Source: Sebaldella termitidis ATCC 33386
Lineage (GTDB): Bacteria; Fusobacteriota; Fusobacteriia; Fusobacteriales; Leptotrichiaceae
NCBI RefSeq assembly: GCF_000024405.1
Contig: NC_013517.1
Span: 1,240,001 to 1,304,000 of the forward strand
Direction: 5' to 3'
DNA length: 64,000 bases
Part shown: in pieces, positions 17,920 to 21,250 of the stretch
Numbering within the stretch: position 1 is the stretch's first letter
Layout: the number at the start of each line of letters is the position of its first letter
The notes under the pieces: generated by a model
Told to the model about the DNA's origin: nothing
Databases searched by the model: none
What the model saw: the letters and a program-made list of their open reading frames with translations, nothing else
Position numbers and translations under genes: made by a program

Positions 17920-17930
17920 ATCAACATATA

Positions 17931-18015
17931 TGCGGGGGAACTGCTTGCAGTTGAGAAGGCTAAAACCTGACCCATTGAACCTGTCAGTTAACACTGGTGA
18001 AGGGAAGCAGTTATT
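17931..18015 (+). ncRNA. TPP riboswitch, copy 1
   Basis: A thiamine pyrophosphate (THI-box) aptamer, recognised by its conserved order of elements: GGGGG, a short ACTGC/GCAGT P3 hairpin, TTGAGA (for the usual CTGAGA), then ACCCATTGAACCTG, a CAGTTAACACTGG arm and GAAGGGAA. AACTGCTT in P3 can also pair with AAGCAGTT at the 3' end, which may be part of the switch. A terminator follows at 18034-18070. It controls thiD-thiM-thiE-tenA. Confidence 0.93.
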
Positions 18016-18033
18016 AGAATATCATTTTTTTGA

Positions 18034-18070: not shown

Positions 18071-18090
18071 TTTAATAAAATTGAATATTT

Positions 18091-18172
18091 TTGCGGGGGG
18101 ACTGCTTGCAGTTGAGAAGGTTAAACCTGACCCATTGAACCTGTCAGTTAACACTGGTGAAGGGAAGCAGTC
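18091..18172 (+). ncRNA. TPP riboswitch, copy 2
   Basis: A second THI-box aptamer, nearly identical to copy 1 over about 80 bases (differences: one G/A change after the G run and a slightly shorter loop after TTGAGAAGG). All core elements (GGGGGG, TTGAGA, ACCCATTGAACCTG, GAAGGGAA) are intact, so both copies should bind TPP. It has its own terminator at 18211-18240 directly before thiD. Confidence 0.93.
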
Positions 18173-18210
18173 TTTTATTTTGAGGTAGAAATTATCATAT
18201 ATATAAATAA

Positions 18211-18268: not shown

Positions 18269-19087
18269 ATGAAAAAAATTCTAAGTATCGCAGGCTCTGA
18301 CTGCAGTGGAGGAGCAGGAATACAGGCAGATTTGAAAACTTTTTCGGCGCACGGACTTTTTGGAATGAGTGTAATTGTCTCTGTAGTAGCAGAGAATACC
18401 AGCAGGGTTATTGACATTCAAAATATAAGCCCTGATATGATCCGGAAACAGATTGATGCAGTTTTTGAAGATATTGGAACAGATGCTGTGAAAATAGGCA
18501 TGCTTTCCGGAGAGGAGAGTATGAGAGCTGTGGCAGAAAAGCTTTCGGAATATAAGGCACAAAATGTAGTGGCAGATCCTGTAATGTATGCAAAAAACGG
18601 ATGTCCGCTAATGGATCCTGATTCTGTAGGAGCTTTGATAGACATAATAATTCCGGCGGCCGATCTGCTTACGCCTAATATTCCCGAGGCGGAAAGAATA
18701 GCAGGGATTACAATTGAAAATACCGAAGATATGAAGAAGGCAGCAGCCAAAATACATAAAATGGGAAGCAGAAATGTACTGGTAAAAGGCGGGCATCTTG
18801 AGAAGGAAGCACTTGATATTTTGTATGACGGAAAAGATTATTATTATTTTAACTCGGAAAGGATAAATACAAAAAATACACATGGAACGGGCTGTACTTA
18901 TTCATCAGCAATTGCTTCAAATCTTGCGTTGGGAATGGGGCTGGAAAATGCTGTGAGAAAAGCAAAAATTTATGTGACAACAGCTATAAGACATTCGCTT
19001 AATATAGGAAAAGGACATGGTCCTACCAATCATTTTTATTCTTTATATAAGAACGGACTTGAAAACGGAGGTGGGAATCATGACTAA
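18269..19087 (+). CDS. thiD: Hydroxymethylpyrimidine/phosphomethylpyrimidine kinase
   Basis: Phosphorylates HMP to HMP-P and then HMP-PP, the pyrimidine half of thiamine. 272 aa of the ribokinase-like fold: GSDCSGGAGIQADLKTF near the N-terminus, the KIGMLS loop, LLTPNIPEAERIAG and the anion-hole HGTGCTYSSAIA near residue 210. AGGAGG lies seven bases before the ATG. First gene of the operon; its stop overlaps the thiM start. No thiC is in the window, so HMP is probably salvaged. Confidence 0.95.
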   Translation: MKKILSIAGSDCSGGAGIQADLKTFSAHGLFGMSVIVSVVAENTSRVIDIQNISPDMIRKQIDAVFEDIGTDAVKIGMLSGEESMRAVAEKLSEYKAQNVVADPVMYAKNGCPLMDPDSVGALIDIIIPAADLLTPNIPEAERIAGITIENTEDMKKAAAKIHKMGSRNVLVKGGHLEKEALDILYDGKDYYYFNSERINTKNTHGTGCTYSSAIASNLALGMGLENAVRKAKIYVTTAIRHSLNIGKGHGPTNHFYSLYKNGLENGGGNHD

Positions 19088-19910
19088 AAAACTAACAGAT
19101 ATAATAAAGGAATATCCTGATGCGGTAAGAACAGAAAAACCTCTTATTCATCATATTACCAATTATGTAACAGTTAATGACTGTGCTAATATTACACTTG
19201 CCGCCGGGGCATCTCCCGTGATGGCTGATGATCCTGAAGAAGCTGAGGATATTGTTTCTCTGGCTTCGGCACTGGTAATAAATATGGGAACGCTGAATAA
19301 AAGAACTATAGAATCAATGATAACTGCCGGTAAAGCAGCAAAGAAAAAGAATATTCCGGTAATTTTTGATCCTGTGGGTGCAGGAGCAGGAACTCTCAGA
19401 AATGAAACTGCAGCAAGAATTCTGAAAGAAGTGAGACCGTCTGTTCTGAAAGGCAATGTATCTGAAATATTATTTATTTCAGGAGTAAGCTCCGGAGCAA
19501 AGGGAGTGGATGTTTCTGAAAATGATAAAAATATAAGAGAGGAAATTATCTGCGAGAAGATAAAGAAACTGGCTCTGAAAACCGGCTGTGTAGTAGCTGC
19601 TACAGGTGAAAAAGATATTATCTCAGACGGGAAAAGGGTCATATATGTGGAAAACGGACATAGAATGATGTCGGATATTACGGGAACAGGATGTATGACC
19701 ACATCACTGACAGCAGTATTTTGCAGTGTCAGTAATGATCTGCTGCTGGGGACAGCAGCAGGAATCCTGTATATGGGACTTGCGGGAGAAAAAGCTTTTA
19801 ATGAAGCAGGAAACCGGGGAAGCGGGAGTTTCAGGACAGCACTTATTGATCAGATTTATAATACCAGCAGAAAGAATATAGAAGAAAATGCCAAAATTTT
19901 TGAAAGATGA
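19080..19910 (+). CDS. thiM: Hydroxyethylthiazole kinase
   Basis: Phosphorylates salvaged hydroxyethylthiazole. 276 aa with family signatures NYVTVNDCANITLAAGASPV (about residues 25-44), MADDPEEAEDI, FDPVGAGAGTLR and DITGTGCMTT for the active-site loop. ATG 19080 follows GGAGGTGGG and overlaps thiD by eight bases; a longer in-frame start at 19017 lies inside thiD without a ribosome site. The stop is 12 bases before the thiE ATG. Confidence 0.95.
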   Translation: MTKKLTDIIKEYPDAVRTEKPLIHHITNYVTVNDCANITLAAGASPVMADDPEEAEDIVSLASALVINMGTLNKRTIESMITAGKAAKKKNIPVIFDPVGAGAGTLRNETAARILKEVRPSVLKGNVSEILFISGVSSGAKGVDVSENDKNIREEIICEKIKKLALKTGCVVAATGEKDIISDGKRVIYVENGHRMMSDITGTGCMTTSLTAVFCSVSNDLLLGTAAGILYMGLAGEKAFNEAGNRGSGSFRTALIDQIYNTSRKNIEENAKIFER

Positions 19911-19922
19911 GGGAGAATACAG

Positions 19923-20571
19923 ATGAAAGGAAAAGATGTATTATACGGAACTGAAATAAAAAAAAATTGATTATTCTTTGTATCTTGTGGCAGACACCAG
20001 TTTTATGACATTAGAAACCGCAGAAAAGAAAGTGACAGAGGCAATAGAGGGAGGGGTAACAATAGTACAGCTGCGGGCAAAGGATATTTCAGCAGCGGAA
20101 TTTTATAATATGGCTTTAAAAATAAAAATGGTAACGGGTTATTATAATGTGCCATTGATAATAAATGACAGGGTAGATATAGCAATAGCCGCAGATGCAG
20201 ATGGCGTACATACAGGTCAGGAGGATTTGCCTGCCGGAGAAGTAAGAAAATTAATAGGTATGAATAAGATAATGGGAATATCCGTTTCAAATACCTCCGA
20301 AGCAGAAAAGGCAGAGAGAGAAAGTGCGGATTATCTGGGAGCAGGAGCAATGTTTCCCACAGATACTAAGCTGGATGCAAAATATGTAAATCTTGAAGAG
20401 CTTGGGGAAATAAAGAAAAAAGTACAGATACCCGTAGTAGCAATAGGGGGAATAAATGCAGAGAATGCAGGACAACTGTTTTGTGCAGGTGCAGACGGTA
20501 TAGCTGTGGTTTCAGCAATATTAGGAGAAAAAAATATAAAAGAAGCAGCTTTGAAGCTGGCTTTAAAATAG
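19923..20571 (+). CDS. thiE: Thiamine-phosphate synthase, out of frame at an A9 tract
   Basis: Joins HMP-PP and HET-P to give thiamine phosphate. The body (from about 19960) is a clear ThiE: NDRVDIAIAADADGVHTGQE, GAMFPTDTK and VVAIGGINAENAG. The conserved start KKIDYSLYLV lies just upstream of any ATG in its frame. A good ribosome site (GGGAG) and ATG at 19923 open a frame that hits TGA at 19968 after an A9 run (19958-19966). With one A fewer, it reads MKGKDVLYGTEIKK then IDYSLYLV without a break, giving about 215 aa, the normal length. A TTG at 19978 is the only in-frame alternative and has no ribosome site. Either slippage, phase variation, a recent mutation or a sequencing error. Confidence 0.85.
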
Positions 20572-20581
20572 GAGGAATAAC

Positions 20582-21250
20582 ATGTCATTTTCAAATACAC
20601 TAAAAGAAAAAGCCGGAAAAGTCTGGGAGGATTGTTACGAGCATCCTTTTTTACAGGAGCTGGGTAAGGGAACACTTGAGAAAGAAAAATTTAAGTTTTA
20701 TCTTCTTCAGGATTACAGGTATTTGATAGAGTATGCAAAAGTATTCGCAGCAGGATCAATAAAATGTGATGAAGAAAAATATATGACAAAATTTTCAGGA
20801 GTTCAGCATAATATACTATATGATGAAATGGATATTCACAGAAAGTATATGGCAGATTTCGGGATAACTGAAAAAGAGGCGGAGGATACTGTCCAGTCTT
20901 TGTTCAGCAAGGCATATACTTCAAATATGCTTGCTACTGCTTATTCGGGTACGACGGCAGATATTATTGCCGTGGTATTTCCATGTGCATGGTCCTATCA
21001 TGACTATGCCAAAAGACTAAAACAGAGCTATGGAGATATACCGGAAGATAATTTTTATAAAAAATGGATAGATACTTATGCAAGTGAGGAATTCGGAGAA
21101 TCTTTCAGCTGGTTTTATGAATATTTGGACTTACTGTGTGAAAATAAAACAGAAAAAGAACTGAAAAAAATAGAAGACATATTCAGAACAAGTATAGAAT
21201 TTGAATTTTTATTCTGGGATATGGCTTACAGAATGAAAATGTCTTATTAA
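20582..21250 (+). CDS. tenA: TenA aminopyrimidine aminohydrolase (thiaminase II)
   Basis: Hydrolyses aminopyrimidine breakdown products of thiamine to HMP for reuse. 222 aa, all helical, with the family pattern HPFLQELGKGTLEKEKFKFY near the N-terminus, the catalytic Cys in FPCAWSYHDYAK and a C-terminal Glu-rich segment (IEFEFLFWDMAY). GGAGG lies seven bases before the ATG and the gene follows thiE by ten bases. It supports the view that the operon is for salvage of degraded thiamine. Confidence 0.94.
   Translation: MSFSNTLKEKAGKVWEDCYEHPFLQELGKGTLEKEKFKFYLLQDYRYLIEYAKVFAAGSIKCDEEKYMTKFSGVQHNILYDEMDIHRKYMADFGITEKEAEDTVQSLFSKAYTSNMLATAYSGTTADIIAVVFPCAWSYHDYAKRLKQSYGDIPEDNFYKKWIDTYASEEFGESFSWFYEYLDLLCENKTEKELKKIEDIFRTSIEFEFLFWDMAYRMKMSY

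Follow-up and report, generated by a model that had tools for sequence, protein, structure and literature searches.

The thiE gene of Sebaldella termitidis raises the question of how a conserved thiamine enzyme comes to lie out of frame with its Shine-Dalgarno (SD)-preceded start codon at a tract of nine A, and whether the break serves expression or is an accident. The DNA analyzed (the window) is a stretch of 64,000 nucleotides, chromosome 1,240,001 to 1,304,000, from the finished type-strain genome of this termite-gut bacterium, which comprises 4,486,650 bases in three replicons; the published description of strain NCTC 11300/ATCC 33386 gives a 4,418,842-bp chromosome and two plasmids (PMC3035275). 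Positions below 64,000 are those of the window, and all window features are on the forward strand. The operon has the order thiD-thiM-thiE-tenA and lies behind two tandem TPP riboswitches, with aptamers at 17924–18023 (chromosome 1257924–1258023; 53.1 bits, 1.2 below the family cut-off) and 18085–18183 (55.2 bits, above the cut-off). Upstream of thiE are thiD (18269–19087; TIGR00097), coding for an HMP/HMP-P kinase, and the hydroxyethylthiazole kinase gene thiM (19080–19910, stop TGA at 19908–19910; TIGR00694), and downstream is tenA (20582–21250; TIGR04306), of the thiaminase II family. ThiC was not detected in the genome, which makes the operon a salvage pathway where linking the HMP half to the thiazole half would fall to ThiE. 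At chromosome position 2,190,175, a third TPP riboswitch precedes an ABC-importer-like operon (named by eye), so thiamine or a precursor may be imported too. A literature search returned no relevant paper on thiamine in Sebaldella.

Direct reading confirmed the geometry that had been noticed from the sequence alone. GGGAG, an SD-like motif at 19911–19915 with a similar motif in the same place in a congener, precedes ATG 19923–19925, the presumed natural thiE start, which opens a 15-codon frame (19923–19970) that reads MKGKDVLYGTEIKKN and terminates at TGA 19968–19970. The thiE body, identified as a thiamine-phosphate synthase by profile matches, lies in the +1 frame at 19960–20571 and is preceded by TAA at 19957–19959, so the two frames are open together only inside the run of nine A at 19958–19966. 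With A9, the SD-preceded ATG is out of frame with the body, and no single continuous open frame runs from one through the other. The sequence-only reading had further proposed that removing one A joins the two, and simulation of tract lengths bears this out while adding a second solution: A8 and A11 alone join the start to KKIDYSLYLVADTSF, and A6, A7, A9, A10, and A12 all fail. The sole conventional in-frame start ahead of the conserved core is TTG 19978–19980, which has no SD.

The nearest relative, a congener with 75% protein identity whose operon genes follow each other in the same sequence, supports ATG 19923 as the natural start. The thiM stop, SD, and ATG line up between the two genomes, and translation from the congener's ATG runs in frame through MNKENRYKADVDYSLYLV into ThiE; there is no A-tract at the congener's thiE start, where the longest A run is at most four. 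In all 22 scorable relatives of the same order, the nearest ATG lies 7 to 15 residues before the first beta strand, a spacing that TTG 19978 does not provide, and ThiE begun at this TTG would have a shorter N-terminus than any of the 22. Three same-order orthologues begin with ATG AAT AAA AAA AAT, an A8 run in frame with the gene, so lysine-rich A8 starts are normal for thiE.

The body of the gene shows no sign of decay. It matches TIGR00693 at 220.6 bits (cut-off 145.1) over profile positions 1–196 of 197, as expected of an equivalog, and covers positions 1–180 of the 180 in PF02581. There is no second thiE copy in the genome, and we therefore rejected the idea that the gene is dispensable through duplication. 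dN/dS against the congener is 0.20, somewhat higher than the 0.05 to 0.12 of three neighboring genes and well below 1. Gene decay was likewise rejected on this value and on a relative-rate count that gives no sign of it: five lineage-specific changes here compare with 11 in the congener, and none of the 48 thiE columns invariant among the outgroups carries a change found only in the window. An undecayed body implies that the break is very recent, is absent from the organism, or is tolerated since the protein is still made. The break is thus confined to a homopolymer in an otherwise sound gene whose nearest relative is intact, the pattern of a singleton homopolymer indel.

To see how often A or T runs break genes elsewhere, we scanned 2.864 Mb, roughly 65% of the chromosome, with a hexamer coding model whose frame calls on 120-nt pieces were 99.9% accurate for its own training genes. 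Among the 31 A9 runs with clearly coding flanks, 29 are in frame, one marks a junction between genes that is served by an SD-start of its own, and the last is thiE, the sole one to break a gene that lacks its own start. Apart from thiE, no gene start in the 2.86 Mb is broken at a run of at least 8. We had considered a genome-wide class of slippage-dependent genes and reject it: the scan gave no case at A8, thiE alone at A9, and a handful of doubtful cases at A7 or shorter runs, so that the thiE break is a singleton in the 2.86 Mb. Compared with third-order Markov expectations over the same 2.86 Mb, A/T nine-mers are depleted about 6-fold (117 observed, ~694 expected) and ten-mers about 50-fold (6 observed, ~291 expected), so the thiE tract is near the longest length that the genome tolerates. 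Under-representation of A/T runs is sharp from length 8 upward.

Two shorter runs also drew attention in the chromosome. One copy of tuf (EF-Tu), at 694,490, is out of frame at an A6 within GHVDHGK, and the other (4,228,199–4,229,305) has A5 and is intact; either the first copy is truly broken or the assembly is wrong there, and the difference hints at residual assembly errors. At 2,003,007, the reading frame of a protein resembling metal-transporting P-type ATPases (by eye) apparently shifts by one base at an A6, which splits it into about 246 codons before the run and 487 after.

The thiE break itself is very probably a non-programmed one-off, either a consensus error or a very recent insertion, and not a control device. 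We infer that thiE is a normal, recently functional gene in which the poly-A tract after the start stands one base above its in-frame length, so that ribosomes starting at ATG 19923 would stop after 15 codons. Within this explanation, a length error in the consensus is a leading possibility that stops short of being probable, and a real, very recent insertion in the strain is a serious though somewhat weaker one. The consensus was built from Sanger and 454 reads and then polished with Illumina data; its stated error rate, below 1 in 100,000, would still allow some tens of errors across the genome, and 454 reads are known for errors in A/T runs. Revision of two 454-era Acinetobacter baumannii genomes, ACICU and AB307-0294, uncovered many indels of 1 to 3 bases, mostly in A/T runs, with 241 in one of them (PMC6861863), and sequencing error is expected to account for most singleton frame breaks that homologues support (PMC3711429). 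The thiE case is alike in that a conserved gene of a largely 454-derived genome loses its frame where an A/T run differs in length by one base; in contrast to the A. baumannii sequences, this one was also Illumina-polished and contains few such breaks, so an error at the thiE tract is not obvious and is here a candidate. The one-base A-run difference between the tuf copies counts in favor of a consensus error, although its weight is reduced by the second copy being intact, since real breakage could then have occurred.

For a real insertion, the polymerase slipping at tracts of 8 to 9 A would make the event easy. The strain had been isolated about 50 years before sequencing and was grown in chopped-meat medium, in which thiamine synthesis is probably not needed; this history makes a real insertion nearly as plausible as an error. 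Were A9 real, ThiE output would be low, with some protein coming perhaps from TTG 19978 or from a minority of messages with an altered A count.

Among the alternatives, the best surviving, and still an unlikely one, holds that A9 is real and normal and that ThiE is made from TTG 19978 (or from ATT 19966, which overlaps the stop), perhaps through ribosomes that reinitiate once the 15-codon frame has ended. The TTG is only 7 nt downstream of the stop at 19968–19970, and starting there costs only the first TIGR00693 position, as the profile match begins at residue 6 and the TTG is residue 7 of the 203-residue frame; moreover, TTG starts lacking an SD are not rare in this genome (82 of 1205 by a crude count). 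However, the codon at the TTG position is CTG in the congener, and the TTG lacks both an SD and the ATG-like spacing seen in the 22 of 22 relatives. It would also leave the SD and ATG 19923 useless, yet both are conserved in place with the congener.

In Blochmannia and Buchnera, some genes are broken at poly-A runs where transcription may slip. At thiE, RNA polymerase slipping on a real A9 would have to produce A8 or A11 messages, both of which restore the frame, in useful amounts, and the genome's avoidance of runs of at least 9 is as expected if such runs slip. The thiE case resembles the frame-disrupted genes with slippage-prone runs described by Baranov et al. 2005 (PMC1088944), in that a conserved gene of an AT-rich bacterium is out of frame at nine A; here, however, the bacterium is cultured and has a 4.4-Mb genome, runs of at least 9 are depleted, and a single gene start is affected with no genome-wide pattern, leaving slippage as only a candidate. 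Slippage at the A9 of Thermus thermophilus dnaX is very efficient, at about 50% (PMC1088944), and in that programmed case, as in thiE, two frames meet inside nine A; but the templated A9 of dnaX encodes the full-length product at a functional site, whereas the templated A9 of thiE gives a 15-residue peptide at a site that is not conserved. Transcript indels in the A/T runs of E. coli and Buchnera are mostly +1, and no frame-restoring event was found (PMC5574713); rescue of thiE requires −1 or +2, and +1 yields an early-stopping A10, so this published bias counts against slippage. Programmed recoding would be expected to conserve the slip site and the frame arrangement, yet the congener keeps neither, and no other gene start in the scan relies on such a tract; we regard slippage rescue as quite improbable. 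Slightly more doubtful still is a scheme in which every cell of the species carries A9 and produces ThiE solely by slippage or a +1 shift, which would throttle thiamine salvage at a low level below the riboswitch control.

Reversible DNA slippage could in principle make the tract a phase-variation switch for thiE. By the standards of this genome the tract is long, and it sits at the 5′ end of the gene; a general occurrence of homopolymer switches within the coding genes of prokaryotes has been proposed (PMC2831843). Phase-variable genes are mostly surface-exposed, with some metabolic ones known, and with one genome per species we see a single allele, A9; as the tract is not kept even in the close congener, a switch has very little to recommend it. 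Thus, of the four options that the sequence-only reading had listed without ranking, fresh mutation and sequencing error are favored, and slippage rescue and phase variation are disfavored by the singleton status, the congener, and the direction of the shift required.

Least credible, to the point of being nearly negligible, is a prfB-like +1 ribosomal frameshift at AAA AAU UGA that would join the frames. The shift needed is indeed +1, the slip site is followed by a UGA, and tRNA-Lys could re-pair fully within the A run, but no SD-like stimulator stands at the distance found in prfB, and the congener does not share the site.

The break in the thiE frame is therefore confirmed, and its cause is most likely the ordinary one of a sequencing slip or a fresh mutation. 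If A9 is an error, the thiamine-salvage annotation of the type species needs correction; a real A9 could leave the type strain unable to join HMP and thiazole and dependent on thiamine uptake. Neither outcome alters the understanding of gene expression.

The scan motivated by thiE also turned up a candidate programmed −1 ribosomal frameshift in a mannitol PTS gene outside the window, at chromosome 1,476,056–1,476,815. A literature search found no paper combining frameshifting and mannitol PTS. The IICB frame ends at a TAG right after A_AAA_AAG, and the IIA domain lies in the −1 frame without its own SD-start. All four Sebaldella genomes examined have an IICB frame of 468 to 477 amino acids, and one further genus in the family has one of 492; where a close homologue occurs elsewhere in the order, it is mostly a fused IICBA frame of about 630 amino acids. 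The junction resembles a conserved recoding site, with features that are absent at thiE, and is a much stronger candidate for recoding than thiE and likely the more interesting of the two, although we put it forward as a predicted site. The heptamer and TAG are kept exactly in the two Sebaldella sequences read, and a predicted stem starts 6 nt past the heptamer, with z-scores of −3.1 here and −2.6 in the congener.
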